Assembly: GCA_030616165.1 (NCBI GenBank) | Contig: JAUWXV010000046.1 | Location: 1-19,470 of the forward strand | Length of the DNA stretch: 19,470 nt | From: a bacterium | GTDB lineage: Bacteria; SM23-31; JAUVVT01 | Reading direction: 5' to 3' | Shown here: positions 2,113 through 19,470 of the stretch, one piece after another | Position numbering within the stretch: the first letter of the stretch is position 1 | Layout of the letters: the number at the start of each line of letters is the position of its first letter | Translations under genes and position numbers: made by a program | Notes under the pieces: generated by a model | What the model saw: only the letters and a program-made list of their open reading frames with translations | Database searches by the model: none | What the model was told of the DNA's origin: nothing

Positions 2113-2258
2113 TCACTTAAACTCATCCATCAACTTAATAAACTCCCTGAACAAATACCCGCTGTTATGTAGTCCGGGACCTGCTTCAGGATGATACTGC
2201 ACCTAAAAGAAATGTTTATCTTTGCCTCTAATCACATCTACTGTTCAATCATAGGAGC
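2113..2258 (-). pseudogene. Fragment of a carA-like 3' end (copy B)
   Basis: This is the counterpart of the fragment at 912-1060. It has the same internal stop before [18 protein letters not shown] but a different C-terminal end, REFIKLMDEFK, before the stop at 2113-2115. The ends of copies A and B differ at about a quarter of nucleotide positions yet encode similar residues, while the core is almost identical. The differing ends look old and the matching core looks recently homogenised. The fragment is not functional. Confidence 0.75.
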
Positions 2259-2308
2259 CAAAAGCGATATGGTATATAAAATGAGGATGCAAATTCTACT
2301 TTAATTAA
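2150..2308. repeat. 159-bp direct repeat, right copy
   Basis: This is the partner of 952-1110, in the same orientation and 1198 bp away. The hepT stop codon of the left copy (1107-1109) aligns exactly with a stop at 2305-2307, which closes the leftover hepT-like tail described next. Confidence 0.95.
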
Positions 2309-2343
2309 ACATTATTCTTCTCCTGGTCTCTCCTTATTTTGCC
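2305..2343 (-). pseudogene. Remnant of the 3' end of a second hepT
   Basis: The last 12 codons plus stop read GKIRRDQEKNNV. They align without gaps to the end of the intact HepT ([11 protein letters not shown]), and the stop codons sit at matching positions of the 159-bp repeat. Upstream of about 2345 the similarity to HepT is lost and the sequence becomes low-complexity AT. This supports a former tandem toxin-antitoxin cassette of which only the end remains. Confidence 0.6.
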
Positions 2344-2756
2344 TGTTTTTACTAATGTTAAACAAAATATAATAGCTGTTTTTTTAGTAAATAAAATATA
2401 CATATTTATTCAATAAATCAACTAAAATTTTGATATTATAATTTATAATAAAATAAAAAATCCATCGTTATTATTGTAATTAACAATGTGTTATATTTTA
2501 GTAATCATCAGGGGATTCACTCATCAAAACTTATTTAATTTTGTTTTTAAAAAAAATTTTTAAAAGAATTTGATTTTTGATTATATTCGCTATATATTAA
2601 AGAAACCACAAAATATCAAAAAAGACCAAAAATAATTCACATACTGATGTATATCTGAGGAACTTCCAACACAACACCAAAATGCAATGATATCCGAACT
2701 TATTCAGATATAATTTTAGGCAAAATTTTGACTTACTAACCGATAGAGGAATTCCA
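2344..2756. other. Gene-free AT-rich spacer
   Basis: I see no supportable gene, RNA gene or clear hairpin here. The sequence is low-complexity A/T from about 2380 to 2600 and more mixed after that. Short minus-strand open frames overlapping its right end have no recognisable content. The promoter of the membrane protein gene at 2757 should lie near the right end, but no convincing -35/-10 pair stands out. Confidence 0.5.
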
Positions 2757-3245
2757 ATGAACATTAAAAGATTCCTGATTTTTTCTGGCAAAGTCATTAT
2801 AGCGCATGTGGTAACATATTTCATAGTGGGAGCCCTCGCTTATCAATTTTTCACGAAGAAATTCTACGTTGGTGCTAATCCAATATTCTCGACGTTTATG
2901 CGCACGCAGTCCGAGCCGGATATGTGGAGTCACGTGATGACATGGTTCATACCCGGTCAGATCCTGCGTGGTCTACTCATCGCTGCTGTGCTGTACCCAT
3001 TTTTCGACACGCTGAAACAATGGGGTTTCTGGAAGCGCTTCTTGTCAATCGCTGGCATATATCTTGTACTGGGTTTCTGGGCATCGACGGTTGCTGCACC
3101 CGGCACAATTGATGGAATGATCTACATGCGGCCCGAGATTACACCTTATGCCCACATGATTGTTCAACCAGAAATTGTTGTGCAGGGTCTTGCTCTTGGT
3201 GCATGGGTAGCATTGTGGATGGCGCGAAAAAATCATAAATTCTAA
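2757..3245 (+). CDS. Small integral membrane protein of unknown function
   Basis: This 162-residue hydrophobic protein has four likely membrane segments, near residues 9-31, 67-86, 92-112 and 136-156. A conserved-looking loop between the third and fourth reads TIDGMIYMRPEITPYAH. I do not recognise a named family. An AGAGG ribosome-binding site lies a few bases before the ATG. Codon use and base composition (many C/G third positions, runs such as GCACGCAGTCCGAGCCGG) differ sharply from the AT-rich genes around it, suggesting recent transfer. A repeat-rich spacer begins directly after its stop. Confidence 0.75.
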   Translation: MNIKRFLIFSGKVIIAHVVTYFIVGALAYQFFTKKFYVGANPIFSTFMRTQSEPDMWSHVMTWFIPGQILRGLLIAAVLYPFFDTLKQWGFWKRFLSIAGIYLVLGFWASTVAAPGTIDGMIYMRPEITPYAHMIVQPEIVVQGLALGAWVALWMARKNHKF

Positions 3246-3450
3246 ATACTAAATCCTAAACAAATTCCTGTCTGCCGACAGGCAGGTAAATTAAATAAAT
3301 TCAAAATTCAAAACGATATAAGTTTAAATTCATGATAGAAAAATTAAAATATGTTTATAACATTTGAATTTAGGATTTGTTTAGGATTTAGGTATTAGGA
3401 TTTATTTAGATATTAGTATTTAGTATTTGTTTAGAATTTAGAATTTATCA
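3233..3450. repeat. AT-rich degenerate repeat with inverted outer arms
   Basis: The left arm (about 3233-3265) contains AAATACTAAATCCTAAACAA. The right side (about 3366-3450) repeats variants of its complement several times, built from TTTAGGATTTGTTTAGGATT and TTAGTATTTAGTATTTG. The result is an imperfect inverted repeat enclosing an A/T spacer and the CCTGTC hairpin. It may be the edge of a small non-coding element or a degenerate minisatellite. No gene is visible between 3246 and 3520. Confidence 0.6.
3268..3287. repeat. CCTGTC/GACAGG hairpin
   Basis: This is a short palindrome with arms CCTGTC (3268-3273) and GACAGG (3278-3283) around TGCC. An alternative fold pairs the outer CCTG and CAGG. 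It differs from the GTAG and GATC hairpin families in this window. Only one copy is seen here. Confidence 0.6.
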
Positions 3451-3520
3451 TTGTATATATATATTTTTCTTTTTTTGTCGTAAAATTTAACAGAACAAGA
3501 AACATTAATAGGATACTAAA

Positions 3521-5032
3521 ATGCGTAATGCAAAAATGAAAACCATTGGATTGTCAATAAGAAGTGCTGCCATTATTACTGGCGCCTTATTATTTCTGCT
3601 TGTTTTAAGTACTATCACTGGTTGTACTTCTCTAAATATAAAACCAAAGGTAGATGAGTTTATTGATGCTTATCTGAAAAAGGGGAAACTTAGTGGGGCA
3701 ATTTTGATAGCCAAAGATAGGGAAATCCTTTTAAACATAGGATACGGAACGGTAAACTCTGAACGTGATGTCCCCAATACACTTCAAACAATATTCCGTT
3801 TTGACTCGGTTACAAAACATCTATCTGGAATGGTTACCATGCAGATTTTAAGTATTCCCACTACCGAAACTGCACAAGAGGTTGAATCAAAGGTAGATGA
3901 ATATATTGGTGCTTATCTGAAAATGGGGAAATTCAGCGGGTCTGTTTTGATAGCCAGAGATGGTGAAATCCTTTTAAAAAAGGGATATGGAATGGCAAAC
4001 TATGAACACGATGTCCCAAATACACCTGAAACAAAATTCCGCTTGGGTTCGGTTACAAAACAATTCACTTCAATAGCAATCATGCAGCTCCAGGAAAAAG
4101 GATTGCTGAATGTTAATGACTCCATAAAGAAATACATTACAGATTATCCTAATGGTGAAAAGATTACCATCCGCCACCTGCTAACTCATACCTCAGGAAT
4201 ACCAAATTTCACAAGCTTTACAAATTATCGGGAGACTATGATGTTAATCTCTCCTGTTGAAAAGACAATAGAAAGATTCAAGGATAAACCGTTGGAATTT
4301 GCACCGGGAGAAAAATATAAATACAGCAATTCAGGATACATTCTATTAGGATATATCGTTGAAAAGGCTTCTAAGAAATCTTATGAAGAATACCTGAAGG
4401 AAAATATTTTCCAGCCGCTTAATATGACAAATACGGGATATGACCATCACAGCCCCTTAACGAAACACCGGGCTTCGGGCTATTCTTTAGGTGGTGATGG
4501 ACTTATTAATGCACCTTATGTTGACATGTCAATCCCTCATGGTGCAGGTGCGTTATATTCCACAGTTGAAGACCTCTATATCTGGGATAGGGCTTTATAT
4601 ACTGAAAAACTGGTGAGTAAAAGTTCACTGGATAAGATATTTACTCCTTTCAAAGAAAACTACGGCTATGGTTGGCAAATAACTGAATCCTTTAATCATA
4701 AGCATATTAGCCATGGCGGAGGAATTAATGGATTTAGCACATATATCTCGAGGTATGTTGATGATGATGTTTGTATCATTGTATTAAGTAATTTTGAACG
4801 TTCACCGACGCAGAAAATTAGTAAAGATTTAACTGCAATTGTTTTTGGGGAAAAGTATGAACTTCCTGAGGAACGAAAGGCAATAAAAGTAGACCCAAAA
4901 ACCTATGATGCCTACGTTGGTCAATATGAATTCTCTCCTGAATTTACTGCTAAGATTACAAGGGAAAATGACCGTCTCTTCGCCCAGTCACCTGGACAGC
5001 CTAAATATGAAATTTTTCCTGAAGGTGGTTGA
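3521..5032 (+). CDS. Lipoprotein serine hydrolase, class C beta-lactamase/penicillin-binding-like (3' frameshifted)
   Basis: The gene has an N-terminal signal with lipobox ITGC (Cys35), so the product is probably a lipoprotein. The catalytic domain has S177-x-x-K180 (SVTK), Y268-S-N270 (YSN) and H398-G-G (SHGGG), the three motifs of the class C beta-lactamase-like serine hydrolases, which act on acyl amides or esters. The N-terminal segment 43-110 is repeated at 124-190, including a second SVTK (S96-K99). The reading frame stops at 5032 (IFPEGG) inside the C-terminal DUF3471-like domain. The rest of that domain (FFLKVVDAQISF to KIKNK) continues in another frame to 5135. The truncated protein keeps all catalytic motifs and could be active. 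Its substrate is unknown. It stands first in a row of three genes for exported proteins. Confidence 0.88.
   Translation: MRNAKMKTIGLSIRSAAIITGALLFLLVLSTITGCTSLNIKPKVDEFIDAYLKKGKLSGAILIAKDREILLNIGYGTVNSERDVPNTLQTIFRFDSVTKHLSGMVTMQILSIPTTETAQEVESKVDEYIGAYLKMGKFSGSVLIARDGEILLKKGYGMANYEHDVPNTPETKFRLGSVTKQFTSIAIMQLQEKGLLNVNDSIKKYITDYPNGEKITIRHLLTHTSGIPNFTSFTNYRETMMLISPVEKTIERFKDKPLEFAPGEKYKYSNSGYILLGYIVEKASKKSYEEYLKENIFQPLNMTNTGYDHHSPLTKHRASGYSLGGDGLINAPYVDMSIPHGAGALYSTVEDLYIWDRALYTEKLVSKSSLDKIFTPFKENYGYGWQITESFNHKHISHGGGINGFSTYISRYVDDDVCIIVLSNFERSPTQKISKDLTAIVFGEKYELPEERKAIKVDPKTYDAYVGQYEFSPEFTAKITRENDRLFAQSPGQPKYEIFPEGG
3647..4093 (+). repeat. Internal tandem duplication in the serine hydrolase gene (81-codon period)
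   Basis: Codons 43-110 (3647-3850) and 124-190 (3890-4093) encode similar peptides: VDEFIDAYLKKGKLSG against VDEYIGAYLKMGKFSG, and FRFDSVTKHLSG against FRLGSVTKQFTS. Both keep SVTK. The first copy ends in a short linker (SIPTTETAQEVES) before the second begins. The second copy continues into the full catalytic domain and is therefore the functional one. Confidence 0.9.
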
Positions 5033-5135
5033 TGCACAAATCTCCTTCATAAAGAATGATAAGGGGGAAGTCACACAATTAAGTCTCCATCAGGGCGGCA
5101 AAGATATGCCTGCTGAAAAAATAAAAAATAAGTAA
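5033..5135 (+). pseudogene. Out-of-frame 3' end of the serine hydrolase gene
   Basis: Beyond the stop at 5032, a different frame (already open across 5008-5032 as FFLKVV) carries DAQISFIKNDKGEVTQLSLH and QGGKDMPAEKIKNK up to 5135. This is the expected end of the DUF3471-type domain. The frame changes at TTTTTCCTGAA (5013-5023), which reads as IFPE in one frame and FFLK in the other. Family members usually have both, separated by a few residues. The next gene starts 26 bp downstream. Confidence 0.8.
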
Positions 5136-6281: not shown

Positions 6282-7244
6282 ATGAAAACATTAAAAAGAT
6301 ACAACACAATATTACTCTTAATATTTTTCAGTGTTAATTTATTATTTAACTTCACAGTTTCAGCACAACAAAAAAATCCTTTCCGCCTCAATAAAGTAAT
6401 ACAACTATTCGAGGAGGGAAAACCTGCTTTTGGTCTTTTTTCTTTAGACCGCTCTCCAAGAAATGCAATTGTTATATCTGAGTCAGACCTGGATTATGTT
6501 TTCATCGATATGGAACATGCCCCCTGGGATATAAATTCGTTCCAACTTTTCCTTTATTCTATGATTAACAAACAAGAGATACTTGCAAAGGGAAATCCAC
6601 AGCCAAATGTTGTTCCAATTGTTAGAATTCCAGCAAATGGTGCGGAAAAAAAGGAATATATGATAAAACAGGTTTTTGACCGCGGGGCTTATGGTGTAAT
6701 TTCTCCACACATTGATACTCCGGAACAGGCAAGAGAACTTGTTCAGGCATGTAGATACCCACAGGAAATAAATGCTCAGGATTATTATCCGGAAGGGCTG
6801 CGTGGTGCTGCCGGAACTCCCGCTCCAAGATACTGGGGCATTACCCTTCCTGAATACATAAATAAAGCGGATGCCTGGCCACTTGACCCTTCAGGTGAAC
6901 TGCTGGTTATAATTCAGATTGAAAGCAAACAGGCAGTTGAAAATATTAATGAAATTATCGATGTCCCGGGAATTGGTGCGGTTTTTATTGGTCCTTTTGA
7001 TTTATCCTTTTCGCTGGGCTACCCGGCAAACACTTCAGCACCACCTGTGGAAAACGCAATGCAAAAAGTTTTAAAAGCCTGTCTTGCAAAAAATATCCCC
7101 TGTGGTATAACAGCGGGCCCCGATGATATCGAGAAACGCCTCAAAGAAGGTTTTAAACTCATTGCATTTAACGGATTAGACGGGGGTCCGAGTACATTAG
7201 TCGTTGAAGGACTGCGAGTTGCGAGGGAATTTTTAAAATATTAA
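6282..7244 (+). CDS. HpcH/HpaI-family aldolase with a signal peptide
   Basis: Residues 1-28 form a signal peptide ending in VSA. The rest is a complete HpcH/HpaI aldolase-type TIM barrel. The equivalents of the HpaI catalytic residues are present: H79 in DMEHAP, R115 in VRIP, and the metal ligands E214 (IQIESKQAV) and D240 (GPFDLSFSLG). The family carries out metal-dependent retro-aldol cleavage of 4-hydroxy-2-oxo acids, releasing pyruvate or a similar oxo acid. An AGGAGG site precedes the ATG. Most family members are cytoplasmic, so export is unusual. Its position after a sialidase-like gene hints at extracytoplasmic sugar-acid breakdown; that link is inference. Confidence 0.9.
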   Translation: MKTLKRYNTILLLIFFSVNLLFNFTVSAQQKNPFRLNKVIQLFEEGKPAFGLFSLDRSPRNAIVISESDLDYVFIDMEHAPWDINSFQLFLYSMINKQEILAKGNPQPNVVPIVRIPANGAEKKEYMIKQVFDRGAYGVISPHIDTPEQARELVQACRYPQEINAQDYYPEGLRGAAGTPAPRYWGITLPEYINKADAWPLDPSGELLVIIQIESKQAVENINEIIDVPGIGAVFIGPFDLSFSLGYPANTSAPPVENAMQKVLKACLAKNIPCGITAGPDDIEKRLKEGFKLIAFNGLDGGPSTLVVEGLRVAREFLKY

Positions 7245-7587
7245 TTTTTTGATACTTCATTCATTTGACTTTTAATTGAAATGTACACAATTATTTTTTA
7301 TGCTTTAAGATTGCTGAAAAAGTCGAATAAATGTTCAGTTTAACCAATACTTCAGATGACAGCGCGTATTCGGTTTTCCCGATAAATCAAGACTCTCTGA
7401 ATGCCTTCAGCACTTAGTATAGCCAGAGAACGTTATGAAAAATGTTTAGTCCAAAAGTATATAAGGAGATTAAATAAACCCCAGATGCACGAATAAAATT
7501 TAAATAAAGATGAGGATTAATATATTTAATTAATATAGGAATGGAACACTTTATTATAGGAGATATAATTAGGTGTGAATTATTCTT
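7245..7587. other. Gene-free spacer between convergent genes
   Basis: The aldolase gene and the kinase gene converge here. I found no supportable gene, hairpin with a T run, or repeat shared with other spacers. The part around 7310-7460 is less AT-rich than its surroundings and could be an old gene remnant, but no frame gives a recognisable peptide. Confidence 0.5.
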
Positions 7588-8268
7588 TTATTTTCTGGGA
7601 ATTCTGACGACAAATTTAGAACCAACATTAAGTTCACTTTCTGCAATTATATCTCCTCCATAAGATTCCAAAATCTGTTTTGCAATTGTTAATCCCATTC
7701 CCTTACCCGCTGATATTTCTGTTAGAAGATTATTTGACTTTGTTGAGAAAAAAGGATTGAATATTTTTGAGATATTTTCTTCAGATATCCCACACCCTGT
7801 ATCTCTAATAGAAAAATAACAATTATTTTCTTCACAAAATGTATCAATAAAAATTTTTCTTTCAACAGAATCATACATGGCTTCCTTCGCATTGGTAAAC
7901 AGGTTATTTACAACCTGAAAAAAATCTATATATTGCCCATTAATTTTATGTGGACATTTTAATTGAAAACTCTTCTCAATCTCATCTCTGTAAAAAGGTT
8001 CAACTTCTTGCAGAAAATTAACCTCCTTTAACAATTGATTAAGCGAAAAATCGGACTCCTCTCTCAATAATTCTACCTTGTCTTTTATGACAAGTCTTTT
8101 TATCATATCGTCCATCCTTTCTGTATATATCTGGATTTTCTCCACATATTGTGAAATCTTCTTATTATCTGACCCTTCCTTTAAATTCCCTGTTAAGACC
8201 ATTACCGCCTGGAGCGAACTTCTAAAATTGTGCAGGAATCCAGAAAAATAAATATCTTCATTCTTCAT
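7588..8268 (-). CDS. Soluble sensor-less histidine kinase
   Basis: This 226-residue protein contains only the transmitter part of a histidine kinase. The phospho-acceptor helix has H13 in LHNFRSSL, a variant H box in place of the common H-E-x-R-T-P. The ATPase domain has the N box NNLFTNAKEA (121-130), the G1 box DTGCGIS (156-162), NPFFSTK (171-177) and GKGMGL (188-193). There is no membrane segment, PAS domain or receiver, and a stop codon lies shortly upstream of the start, so no sensor domain is attached. It should phosphorylate a separate response regulator. None is adjacent; the nearest is the receiver-PAS gene at the left edge. No strong ribosome-binding site is visible. Confidence 0.88.
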   Translation of the reverse strand: MKNEDIYFSGFLHNFRSSLQAVMVLTGNLKEGSDNKKISQYVEKIQIYTERMDDMIKRLVIKDKVELLREESDFSLNQLLKEVNFLQEVEPFYRDEIEKSFQLKCPHKINGQYIDFFQVVNNLFTNAKEAMYDSVERKIFIDTFCEENNCYFSIRDTGCGISEENISKIFNPFFSTKSNNLLTEISAGKGMGLTIAKQILESYGGDIIAESELNVGSKFVVRIPRK

Positions 8269-8573
8269 TTTATTTAAACTATCGTTTCATTTTAAATTCA
8301 TATCAGGTTACTCTTTCATTTTATCGATTTTTTTATGCTCATAATTCAGATTTAATAATTCTATCCTATCCCCCAATTTCTACATTTTTTAAATTATTGT
8401 TAAATTAAATAAAATATTATGAGATTGTAAAGTTCTTTATTAGTAAAATAAGTTCTTTAAAAGTCCCTTTTTAGTAAAAAACTCTTTTTAATATTCCAAT
8501 TGAAAAATTATTCTCCAAATGTTGAATTTAAAATGAATTCTTATTTTAGCGATCTGATTTGATAAATTAGAGA
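8269..8573. other. AT-rich spacer upstream of the histidine kinase
   Basis: The stretch holds the presumed promoter region of the kinase gene. Around 8432-8510 there are repeated short motifs (TTCTTTATTAGTAAAATAA and CCTTTTTAGTAAAAAACTC) that could form weak A/T hairpins. No gene is visible. Confidence 0.4.
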
Positions 8574-11732: not shown

Positions 11733-11762
11733 GATCGCCTCGGGTATCTTACCCGAGGCACT
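11733..11762. repeat. GATCG-hairpin repeat (same family as those flanking the RAYT gene)
   Basis: GATC leads into a perfect 9-bp hairpin, GCCTCGGGT (11737-11745) and ACCCGAGGC (11751-11759), loop ATCTT. The copy at 18013-18040 is nearly the same sequence on the opposite strand, and the copies at 17269 and 17363 are relatives with a changed stem. This copy stands alone, 5.5 kb from the transposase gene. The rest of the spacer 11704-12131 shows no gene. Confidence 0.8.
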
Positions 11763-15829: not shown

Positions 15830-17182
15830 CTAATGAATCCTATCAATTATTTGTTTTATACTTTTATTATTGCCGCCTGACTCCAGATATCTATTATAAT
15901 ATTCTAACGCTTTTAATATTTCACCTTTTATTTCATAAAGTCTCCCGATTGTAATATTGATATCAATATCTTCTGGATTTTTTTTAAGGTCACTTTCAAA
16001 TCCTTTAATCAATTCATCAAAGTCCAAAATATCTGGATTATAATATTCGCGAGGAAAACTGATTTCTGCTCGGGTAGAATCGGGAATCACCTCAAATGCT
16101 TTTTCGATAGAACCCCTTACAAGTTCGTTCTTTCCCATTCTATTATACAAAACACCCATATTAAAATGTGCTTCCGCAAGATTGGGATTAATCATGAGAG
16201 CAGATTTATATTCTTCTTCTGCTAAATCATACATATTTTTTTCCCGATATGCATTTCCTAAATTACAGTGAGCCTCTGCAAGTTTCGGATTAATCGTAAT
16301 TGCTTTCTTTAATTCTTCAATAGCATCATCATACCGCTTATCCAGATAATATATAGTTCCAATCCCGTAATAGGACTCACTATCTGACGGATTTAATGAG
16401 ATTGCTCTCACGTATGATTCCAACGCTCTATTCCACTCATTTTTAATTCTATAAACATTACCCATATTACAATAAGCATCTGAAAATTGGGGATTGATAA
16501 TAACTGCTTCTTCACAACATTTCAACGATTCGTCAAATTTTCCTATTTTGTAATACGCAACTGCGAGATTATTATGAATTTCTGAATTATCAGGGGCAAG
16601 TTCTATTGCATTTATATAATTTGAAATTGATTTATTAAAATCTCCTTTTAAAAAATATGCATAACCCATAAAATGGTATGCTTGAGAACTATTCTTATTT
16701 CTCTCTAAAACCTTTTCATACTGTGCAATAGATTCATCCGGTCGATTTAAATAACTCAGAACAAGACCCATATTCAATCTAACATATTCACTTTTTGGGT
16801 TTAACTCTAATGCTTTCTGATAGTTCTTTAATGCCTCCGGATATTTACCAATATGCAAATAGATATTACCTAAATTGAAATATGAGTCTGAATATTCAGG
16901 GGCAACTTTTATCGCTTTCATCAACTCTTTGACTGCTTCATCGTGCAGTCTTATCATCGAATATATATTCCCAAGTTCATTATAACCTCTTGGGTCTTTT
17001 GGATTCAATGATATTATTCTTTTATACTCATTAATTGCCTCATTAACCCTTCCGCTAACTGCAAGCTGTTTCGCTCTTTTATAGTCTAAATCAGTCTGTC
17101 CTGATAATCTATTTCCTATTACTGCGCCAAAAAATAAAAGACATAAGATAGCCAAACACGATAAAAATACTCTTCTCATCAT
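15830..17182 (-). CDS. Exported TPR-repeat protein (about 11 repeats)
   Basis: This 450-residue protein has an N-terminal signal or anchor (residues 5-24), followed by ten consecutive 34-residue tetratricopeptide repeats from about 33 to 372. Typical units are YFNLGNIYLHIGKYPEALKN and YCNMGNVYRIKNEWNRALES. An eleventh follows near 408-442 after a gap (EFPRE-like linker, residues 375-405). Such superhelices bind other proteins, and no catalytic domain is present. An AGAGGT ribosome-binding site precedes the ATG-ATG start. The first 33 bp and this leader are duplicated at 18059-18109, where the ancestral upstream gene ends, so the TPR gene originally followed the zinc-ribbon gene directly. Confidence 0.92.
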   Translation of the reverse strand: MMRRVFLSCLAILCLLFFGAVIGNRLSGQTDLDYKRAKQLAVSGRVNEAINEYKRIISLNPKDPRGYNELGNIYSMIRLHDEAVKELMKAIKVAPEYSDSYFNLGNIYLHIGKYPEALKNYQKALELNPKSEYVRLNMGLVLSYLNRPDESIAQYEKVLERNKNSSQAYHFMGYAYFLKGDFNKSISNYINAIELAPDNSEIHNNLAVAYYKIGKFDESLKCCEEAVIINPQFSDAYCNMGNVYRIKNEWNRALESYVRAISLNPSDSESYYGIGTIYYLDKRYDDAIEELKKAITINPKLAEAHCNLGNAYREKNMYDLAEEEYKSALMINPNLAEAHFNMGVLYNRMGKNELVRGSIEKAFEVIPDSTRAEISFPREYYNPDILDFDELIKGFESDLKKNPEDIDINITIGRLYEIKGEILKALEYYNRYLESGGNNKSIKQIIDRIH

Positions 17183-17260
17183 AATGACCTCTGAAATTCT
17201 CTATTTTTTCTCATCTTTTTGAATATTTCTCCATACAAATTCTAAAAATTCTTCGTTTCT
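17150..17260. repeat. 111-bp direct repeat flanking the RAYT block, left copy
   Basis: This copy matches 18059-18169 with three substitutions and no gaps. It covers the first codons and ribosome-binding site of the TPR gene and a copy of the last 19 codons plus stop of the zinc-ribbon gene. The copies are 909 bp apart. Weak similarity continues about 15 bp leftwards into the TPR gene. Confidence 0.95.
17201..17260 (-). pseudogene. Duplicated 3' end of the zinc-ribbon gene
   Basis: The last 19 codons (RNEEFLEFVWRNIQKDEKK) and stop of the gene at 18110-19366 occur here again just before the TPR gene. The peptide is identical and two substitutions are synonymous. Sequence to the right of 17260 is unrelated, so this is a severed tail. 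Confidence 0.9.
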
Positions 17261-17268
17261 AAAAATTC

Positions 17269-17415
17269 TCGATCGCCCTGGGTTTCATTACCCAGGGCGT
17301 AACATTTTGGGGCCTCTGCCCTTTTATATGTAGCTGTTTATTTTTCAAACTTCCAATCTACTTCGATCGCCCTGGGTTTCATTACCCAGGGCGTAACATC
17401 TTGGGGCCTCTGCCC
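17269..17415. repeat. Two tandem double-hairpin units (94-bp period)
   Basis: Units at 17269-17321 and 17363-17415 differ at one position. Each begins with GATC and has a perfect 8-bp hairpin, GCCCTGGG and CCCAGGGC, loop TTTCATTA. A smaller hairpin, GGGGC-CTCT-GCCCC, follows (its last base is changed in the first unit). The second unit ends 7 bp before the stop of the RAYT gene, so it may also end that transcript. Confidence 0.85.
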
Positions 17416-17422
17416 CGAAAGA

Positions 17423-17971
17423 TTAAAAACTATCCAGTTTTGAAATTTCGATAATGTTATTATCATCATTTAACCAATTTCGGGCACTGCTATATTTCCA
17501 ATCTTCAGGGGATTCTACGAAACCTTTTCGAACCGGATTGTCATGCATATACTGAAGCTTTTGAACAAACCAACGCCCATATTTCAATGCAATCGGATGA
17601 TATTCATCTTGCCAAACTTTGTACGTTTGATTTAAATGCCGTTTCTTTGCAGCTTTCGTAAAAGTAGAAAAATAATATGATTTCTCATCGGTTTCGAGAA
17701 CTTTGATTATTTGGGTCGAAGTATAATGTTTGAAATCCCGCATAATATCTGCCAGTGATGTATCAGGTTTATTGGATACAATTAAGTGAAGATGAGTGGG
17801 CATAATAATAAATCCATGGAGAATGAGCCCTTTATGCTCCTGACAATATTTAAGGCTTTTAATGATGATTTGGAAATAGGTATCATCCTGAAAAACGGGT
17901 AACCAATTGATGATAGTACATGTGGCATAATAAAATACCGTTTCTTCAGGGTATATACGATATCGTTTCAT
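17423..17971 (-). CDS. REP-associated tyrosine transposase (RAYT, Y1/HUH superfamily)
   Basis: This 182-residue protein has the HUH metal-binding pair H60-L-H62 (MPTHLHLIV) and the single catalytic Tyr141 in the RAYT block LQYMHDNPVRKGFV, followed by W-x-YSSA (158-163). W120-Q121 (VWQDEYHPI) also fits the family. RAYTs are single-copy relatives of IS200/IS605 transposases that cut and join single-stranded REP hairpins. Length and motif order are normal and no residue is missing, so it may be active. An AAGG site precedes the ATG. REP-like hairpins lie 7 bp beyond its stop and 16 bp before its start. Confidence 0.93.
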   Translation of the reverse strand: MKRYRIYPEETVFYYATCTIINWLPVFQDDTYFQIIIKSLKYCQEHKGLILHGFIIMPTHLHLIVSNKPDTSLADIMRDFKHYTSTQIIKVLETDEKSYYFSTFTKAAKKRHLNQTYKVWQDEYHPIALKYGRWFVQKLQYMHDNPVRKGFVESPEDWKYSSARNWLNDDNNIIEISKLDSF

Positions 17972-17986
17972 CGATTGCCTTTATTT

Positions 17987-18006
17987 AGTGGGCTATGAAG
18001 CCCACT
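17987..18006. repeat. Perfect 8-bp hairpin upstream of the RAYT gene
   Basis: AGTGGGCT (17987-17994) and AGCCCACT (17999-18006) flank the loop ATGA. It lies 16 bp upstream of the transposase start, where it could be both a REP-like substrate and an element affecting expression. Confidence 0.75.
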
Positions 18007-18091
18007 TATTATGTGCCTCGGGTAAGATACCCAAGGCGATTATGAAAAAACATGAAACAGCCAAACACGATAAAAATACTCTTCTCATCAT
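17993..18091 (-). pseudogene. Truncated 5' copy of the TPR gene (32-codon frame)
   Basis: The duplicated ribosome-binding site and start (MMRRVFLSCLA) lie 18 bp after the zinc-ribbon stop, as the TPR gene must once have done. After 11 codons the frame runs into the hairpin region and ends as VSCFFIIALGILPEAHNKWAS, so part of the peptide is encoded by hairpin repeats. With its leader intact it could be translated as a short hydrophobic peptide. Confidence 0.7.
18013..18040. repeat. GATC-type hairpin on the right side of the RAYT block (inverted)
   Basis: GCCTCGGGT (18015-18023) pairs with ACCCAAGGC (18029-18037) with one mismatch, loop AAGAT. Read on the minus strand it starts ATCGCCTTGGGT, matching 11735-11746 with one difference and the left-hand units of this block more distantly. 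The orientation is opposite to the left-hand units. Confidence 0.8.
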
Positions 18092-18169
18092 AATGACCTC
18101 TGAAATTTTCTATTTTTTCTCATCCTTTTGAATATTTCTCCACACAAATTCTAAAAATTCTTCGTTTCT
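18059..18169. repeat. 111-bp direct repeat flanking the RAYT block, right copy
   Basis: This is the partner of 17150-17260. It contains the authentic 3' end of the zinc-ribbon gene, the 18-bp intergenic gap and the severed start of the TPR gene. Confidence 0.95.
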
Positions 18170-19366
18170 GGAATTATCTCCCCACTTCGTATAGGAAAGT
18201 TTACCCAAATCTGGAGGGATAAAATAATTACCTGTCGGCAGTTCGACAAAAATCCCCTCGCATTTCATATTCAACTCTTCTAAAACAGAACCCACTCCTC
18301 TTGCAATTTCCGGAAGATAAACCTTTTTATCAATTTTCAGGTCATTCTCAAAAATCCCAACCTGAACTCCCGCATCCTTAAATTCTGAAGGGAATATTTT
18401 TATTTCCGGGTTTATCTCACTCTTACTGCTAAATTTTTCATCCAGATAATAAGCAAACCTTCTGTAATTAAATTTTGAATATTGATAACTGTTAATCTTT
18501 TTTATATTCTGTGAAATAATCTTACCTAAAGAACCTTGCCTCCATGAATATTTATACCACCATGCATTACCCCCGAACCTTCTTTCATCATCTCTATTGT
18601 ATAATAATACTTCAACTTCCTGTGGCTCTTTAAAGTATTTAAAACCGCTCTTTTTTTTCTGGTCATCCCCTAACTTTTTTATCAAATTAAATGCCCCATT
18701 CTCTAAAATACCTTCATCAACTTCAATTTTCAGAGCCAAACGTGCCTCGGCTTCGCTGTCTATAATATCAACACCTATAATTGAATAATTTGAACTAATT
18801 TTCTGCTCGTCCTCAGTTTGAAACGTGAACCCTTTTGTTTCATTATATCTGGGAGTTTTTTGGGATAATTTTAACCCATCTTTACTTTTATAAATAGCCG
18901 GTATATATTTCCGAGAACCAACCATAAAAACAAGACTTAAAATAATTACTGCTAAAAATAGGATTGCCCCTGTTTTAATTAATTTTTTATTTTTATTCCA
19001 AAAACCATTTACAACTTTTCTCTTACTATCAACCTCTTTGGATTCTTGAATTTTAACTGAAGCTCCAAATGATTCAATTCTCAACTTTAACTTATGGGCA
19101 TTTTCCGAAGATATACCTCTGAATAAACAAAGGGGAAGTCTTTTCAAATCTTTATCAATCTTTCTTTTCTTGACTCCCAATATTCGATTTAAAAGATTGA
19201 CCAATTTTTCTCTATCTTTTCCAATATCTATAAGAAAAATGTCAAATTTCGAAGGCTTCAACGAATTTAACTTTTCAGATTTTTTAAAATGTGGTAAAAG
19301 CCCGCCACATTTTGGACACCTGATCATATCTTCAGTGACAGGTGTCTCACATCTTCTGCATTTCAT
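18110..19366 (-). CDS. Zinc-ribbon / ribosomal L12 C-terminal-like / membrane protein
   Basis: The 418-residue protein starts with a zinc ribbon (C3, C6, C17, C20; CRRC and CPKCG). Residues 41-107 align without large gaps to the C-terminal domain of ribosomal protein bL12. FDIFLIDIG matches its first strand, LCLFRGISSENAHKLKLRIE matches the P-x-x-[IV]-x-x-G-[VI]-[ST]-x-x-x-A-x-x-[LI]-K-x-x-[LI]-E part, and SFGASVKIQ matches its GAxVEV end. A single membrane segment follows at 131-150, then about 265 residues outside the membrane with no family I recognise. The lysine cluster near 115-131 supports an inside N-terminus. It was originally followed, 18 bp on, by the TPR gene; the RAYT block now separates them. 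Motifs are clear, function unknown. Confidence 0.85.
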   Translation of the reverse strand: MKCRRCETPVTEDMIRCPKCGGLLPHFKKSEKLNSLKPSKFDIFLIDIGKDREKLVNLLNRILGVKKRKIDKDLKRLPLCLFRGISSENAHKLKLRIESFGASVKIQESKEVDSKRKVVNGFWNKNKKLIKTGAILFLAVIILSLVFMVGSRKYIPAIYKSKDGLKLSQKTPRYNETKGFTFQTEDEQKISSNYSIIGVDIIDSEAEARLALKIEVDEGILENGAFNLIKKLGDDQKKKSGFKYFKEPQEVEVLLYNRDDERRFGGNAWWYKYSWRQGSLGKIISQNIKKINSYQYSKFNYRRFAYYLDEKFSSKSEINPEIKIFPSEFKDAGVQVGIFENDLKIDKKVYLPEIARGVGSVLEELNMKCEGIFVELPTGNYFIPPDLGKLSYTKWGDNSRNEEFLEFVWRNIQKDEKK

Positions 19367-19437
19367 AATAAAATTTCAACCCTTCTAACGGTAATAATCT
19401 AAAATATAAAATCTGAACTTTTGTGAATTTTTAATAT

Positions 19438-19462
19438 GGTCAGACATTCCTGTCTGACCTAC
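19438..19462. repeat. GTAG-hairpin repeat on the minus strand
   Basis: Arms GGTCAGACA (19438-19446) and TGTCTGACC (19451-19459), loop TTCC. GTAG on the minus strand (19462-19459) overlaps the first stem base exactly as in the copies at 8574 and 10304, with one compensating change in the stem (A to T and T to A). Confidence 0.8.
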
Positions 19463-19470
19463 CATTATCG

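Follow-up and report, generated by a model that had tools for sequence, protein, structure and literature searches.

A RAYT/REP block bracketed by two copies of a gene junction, and comparable repeats around REP and RAYT elements at two further loci

The sequence analyzed here (termed the window) is a stretch of 19,470 nucleotides, positions 1–19,470 of contig JAUWXV010000046.1 in GenBank assembly GCA_030616165.1, from a bacterium of the GTDB lineage SM23-31. It carries a zinc-ribbon protein gene and a TPR protein gene on the same strand, and between them is a block composed of REP hairpins and a RAYT gene. The features are:

15830–17182, minus strand: TPR protein gene, intact; its start lies within the left repeat copy
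17136–17260 (core 17150–17260), no strand assigned: left copy of the target duplication (TPR start, 18-bp gap, zinc-ribbon tail)
17269–17321, minus strand: outer 3′ REP, two hairpins (DNA fold −16.9 kcal/mol, z −6.0)
17363–17415, minus strand: inner 3′ REP, two hairpins, 98% identity to the outer 3′ REP (DNA fold)
17423–17971, minus strand: RAYT gene (Y1 HUH transposase), 182 aa, intact (NF047646, Pfam Y1_Tnp, alignment)
~17983–18041, minus strand: 5′ REP, two hairpins, with copies elsewhere in the genome (DNA fold)
18045–18169 (core 18059–18169), no strand assigned: right copy of the target duplication
18110–19366, minus strand: zinc-ribbon protein gene, intact; its end lies within the right repeat copy

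The block between the two repeat copies occupies positions ~17267–18044 (~775 bp) and has the layout REP-RAYT-REP. The outer and inner 3′ REPs are direct repeats downstream of the RAYT gene, the 5′ REP is upstream of it, and all three fold far better than shuffled sequences. The RAYT protein scores 103.1 bits against NF047646, the NCBI RAYT model (cutoff 80), and 30.4 bits against the NCBI IS200 model, which is below the cutoff of 55 and thus does not indicate an IS200-type TnpA. It displays an HxH motif (H60/H62) and a tyrosine (Y141) that are invariant among five relatives. The flanking hairpins have dispersed genomic copies, a further criterion for RAYTs: the 5′ REP hairpin is present at 13 genomic places with one mismatch at most, and the 3′ REP hairpin at 10 places with two at most. 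The canonical GT(A/G)G head is absent from the REP foot, and the ends of the block are GATCG (left) and CGATT (right). RAYT classes 2.6 and 3 have been described without this consensus (PMC6006769), thus the head is not universal to RAYTs. A relative of the window RAYT was not found in the phage records or viral contigs searched.

Other elements of this type were seen. A solo one-hairpin REP of the same family as the block REPs is at window positions 11733–11759. On contig C182 of the same genome (L079, positions 1405–2640), a second RAYT-like gene is found inside a tandem array of ~41-bp REP-like units. In a Zodletone MAG (L095, positions 2254–5058), the first part of a RAYT continues in frame into a cellulase-like open reading frame of 934 aa.

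The block is bracketed by two direct repeats, at positions 17150–17260 and 18059–18169, each 111 bp long; they differ by three substitutions, and their longest stretch of identity is 49 bp. A repeat of this length and divergence around the block had been claimed by the sequence-only reading, and the repeat alignment bears this out for the core; the full extent is greater, as the homology reaches 125 bp at 94% identity (17136–17260 and 18045–18169). The first 14 bp of the 125-bp repeat contain four extra transitions, and a gapped match extends ~10 bp past the other end. The similarity is far above chance (self-BLAST E-value ~1e-52), and a DNA search of the genome did not find further copies of the repeat. 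The start coordinate given by the same reading, 17150, marks where the left repeat copy begins, not the block itself.

Inspection of the open reading frames confirms the junction anatomy that had been proposed. The right copy joins the true end of the zinc-ribbon gene to a severed TPR start, encoding MMRRVFLSCLAV... followed by unrelated residues. The left copy is the reverse, a true TPR start together with a severed zinc-ribbon tail, RNEEFLEFVWRNIQKDEKK*. The reconstructed operon, in which an 18-bp gap separates the zinc-ribbon stop from the TPR start, is likewise upheld (positions 18092–18109). Towards the outer edge of both severed copies the alignment becomes weaker, as would be expected where a sequence has been freed from selection.

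An uninterrupted zinc-ribbon/TPR junction with a single copy of the repeat, which the earlier reading had suggested looking for in relatives, is present in G001, the only genome of the same family that was sampled and one that belongs to a different genus. Its zinc-ribbon orthologue has 54% aa identity, the TPR gene follows directly with a 14-bp overlap, and there is one junction copy. A single-copy target in an element-free relative is thus available for the window locus from this one relative of another genus, a distance at which it does not date the insertion. The single, uninterrupted junction in G001 indicates that the window repeat is a duplicated pre-existing junction and that the block is the insertion. 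The comparison of the two sequences therefore supports the view that the block was inserted into a conserved gene pair.

Two further loci show a similar arrangement. Contig C231, from the same genome as the window, has a solo two-hairpin REP of 62–67 bp between 56-bp repeats that are 98% identical (a single mismatch and a 51-bp stretch of identity). The foot of the first hairpin marks the end of one repeat copy, and the other copy begins within a few bases of the second hairpin. A DNA search of the genome did not find a further copy of the C231 repeat. The other locus, L240, is in G085, a genome from the same phylum as the metagenome-derived genome G060. Here an 820-bp REP-RAYT-REP block is positioned exactly between 79-bp repeats of 95% identity; the RAYT shows 37%–38% identity and its flanks are 71-bp REP-like repeats. 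The left repeat copy starts in the last codons of an upstream 389-aa open reading frame, and the right copy begins 2 bases past the right REP. A DNA search of the whole of G085 did not find a further copy, and a syntenic empty site for L240 was not found in relatives of the G085 family. L240 came from scanning and is not an unselected sample. At all three loci the ends of the element match the edges of the repeats within a few bases, with little junction microhomology, and the repeat length varies, i.e. 56, 79 and 111–125 bp.

A low-copy spaced direct repeat was defined as at least 35 bp in length, at least 88% identical and with a spacer of less than 2.5 kb. In the 868,665 bp scanned of the window's genome (termed G000, ~23% covered), 11 such repeats were found and two of them surround REP or RAYT elements; the remainder mostly represent gene paralogs, domain repeats, an island linked to a tRNA or a toxin-antitoxin relic. 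In the 456 kb scanned of G085 (~9% covered) none of the spaced repeats exceeds 41 bp except that at the RAYT locus. With the G000 repeats as a basis, a randomly placed block of 50–1000 bp has a probability of ~5e-5 of being bracketed to within 20 bp. For the ~105 REP and RAYT loci inspected this gives ~0.005 expected versus three seen, a figure to be read as an estimate since L240 emerged from the scan and some of the loci overlap one another or come from a common genome.

Such duplications are not general. Apart from the window, ~95 RAYT loci were scanned and target-derived repeats were seen at L240 alone, the others having REPs as flanks or none, and 10 other testable 5′ REP sites in the window's genome show no such duplication. 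The earlier reading had proposed looking in the genome for further RAYT blocks with long flanking repeats. In the window's genome such repeats surround the solo REP of C231, and in G085 the RAYT block of L240; most RAYT loci scanned have none. It follows that the duplication is either occasional or has been lost by decay in non-coding DNA, and decay may explain its absence at the other loci.

Several candidates were set aside. The flanking repeats at L061, L093, L094, L231, L232, L235 and others are REPs or REP-like, being palindromic or having further copies, and the repeat at the C233 locus (L073) belongs to a longer dispersed repeat. The repeats in L166, L181 and L153 either consist of paralogous genes or domains or adjoin such sequences. 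In two Bernardetia plasmids with RAYT relatives the flanking repeats are inverted, not direct. A 52-bp repeat on contig C56 corresponds to the 3′ terminus of a tRNA-Ser gene, which points to a tRNA-linked island; at this locus (L180, positions 6500–8271) the two copies are 1.7 kb apart with a ParB-like and other small open reading frames between them, and the region resembles an integrated island. A 222-bp repeat in the window (positions 921–1142 and 2119–2340, 91%) is around HEPN, MNT and HicB-like genes; its second copy resembles a relic of the HEPN 3′ end, and the pair was interpreted as what remains of a duplicated HEPN-MNT unit. The end of the window (positions 19410–19470) is within a repeat also found on contig C259 (L072, ~2140–2200).

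The explanation we put first, with about even confidence, is that the duplication was coupled to RAYT/REP insertion, i.e. that insertion of the block as a unit at the junction copied ~110–125 bp of target. The ~775-bp REP-RAYT-REP element would have inserted between the two co-directional genes by joining to a single-strand break in each strand, the two breaks lying ~50–130 nt apart. One break might, for example, be a nick made by the RAYT and the other a nick or gap associated with replication. Filling of both single-stranded tails would then produce a long target duplication of variable length, and duplication and insertion would be one event. Both genes would keep intact ends because the insertion duplicated the ~110–125 bp of target. 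A comparable outcome is known from mouse cells, where offset nicks on opposite strands give tandem duplications (PMC5730883). There too filled single-stranded tails duplicate the sequence between the nicks, but the likeness is an analogy only, and unlike the mouse-cell duplications the window copies have a mobile element between them.

A two-step origin appears rather unlikely, but it fares best among the alternatives. The block would have inserted without duplication, and the REP hairpins or cleavage by the RAYT at the element ends would later have provoked a local duplication of the target, either by template switching or because target and element were duplicated in tandem and one of the two element copies was then lost. 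In favour of this origin, precise excision of REP doublets has been recorded in reads (PMC3116915), REP arrays by other RAYT genes contain amplified non-REP spacers (L099, L228, L243), and the second RAYT in the window's genome is within its array of 41-bp units. However, two events are needed, with breakpoints exactly at the ends of the element, at three loci, and an intermediate with two element copies was not seen.

It is improbable that the repeats arose from an unrelated tandem duplication of the junction, whether the block landed afterwards between the copies or was captured by the duplication. The genome does contain short spaced duplications with other causes, e.g. the paralogous genes and the tRNA-linked island, but the element must hit the exact seam of the copies, at ~5e-5 per block, and this holds at three independent loci. 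The sequence-only reading had left the choice between a RAYT-linked mechanism and such a duplication. The link to the RAYT/REP element is now favoured, since two further independent REP/RAYT loci, C231 and L240, are bracketed by target-type repeats that are rare elsewhere, and the unrelated tandem duplication is less favoured.

Homology-driven integration of a molecule carrying both the element and the junction (a circle or transferred DNA) would also leave two copies, and is quite improbable. The differences at 3 of the 111 sites are explicable by recombination with a diverged donor, and moved genes with flanking target-derived repeats in Arabidopsis have been explained by circle insertion (PMC2869330). 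Such a donor must, however, already have the element adjoining the same junction, and the differences also fit drift after duplication, because decay is most advanced at the edges of these copies where they are severed. An assembly artefact in this short-read metagenome bin, fragmented into 343 contigs, is very improbable, since the window copies share no identical run longer than 49 bp, read pairs could span the repeat-REP-repeat unit of C231, which measures only ~175 bp, and the anatomy recurs in another genome, G085.

As in the RAYT/TnpA-REP system (REPtron; PMC2817692, classified in PMC6006769), the window block has a Y1 HUH transposase above the RAYT cutoff with hairpin REP flanks and dispersed copies. 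Unlike known REPtrons, the window block adjoins long target-derived direct repeats and its REPs end in GATCG, not in the canonical GT(A/G)G head. It also appears to have inserted as a unit, whereas REPtrons reportedly do not seem to move in this way (PMC6006769). The related transposase and the terminal hairpins recall the single-strand transposition of IS200/IS605 (IS608), but that family is without larger target duplications (PMC2817692) and the window protein is below the IS200 cutoff.

The mechanism of REPIN dissemination has been called a central but unresolved issue (PMC3116915). The window locus illustrates that a gene pair can be split by an insertion with both genes remaining whole. 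A block with recognisable ends, an empty site that can be reconstructed and a long duplication, recurring at other loci, gives a concrete and testable footprint of the spread of REPs by RAYTs. Somewhat more tentatively than for the window locus itself, we suggest that RAYTs and REPs may transpose leaving long duplications of variable length, from tens to more than 100 bp, and that REPtrons may move as units by way of breaks in both strands. The footprint would then mean insertion with breaks in both strands rather than a purely single-strand insertion.
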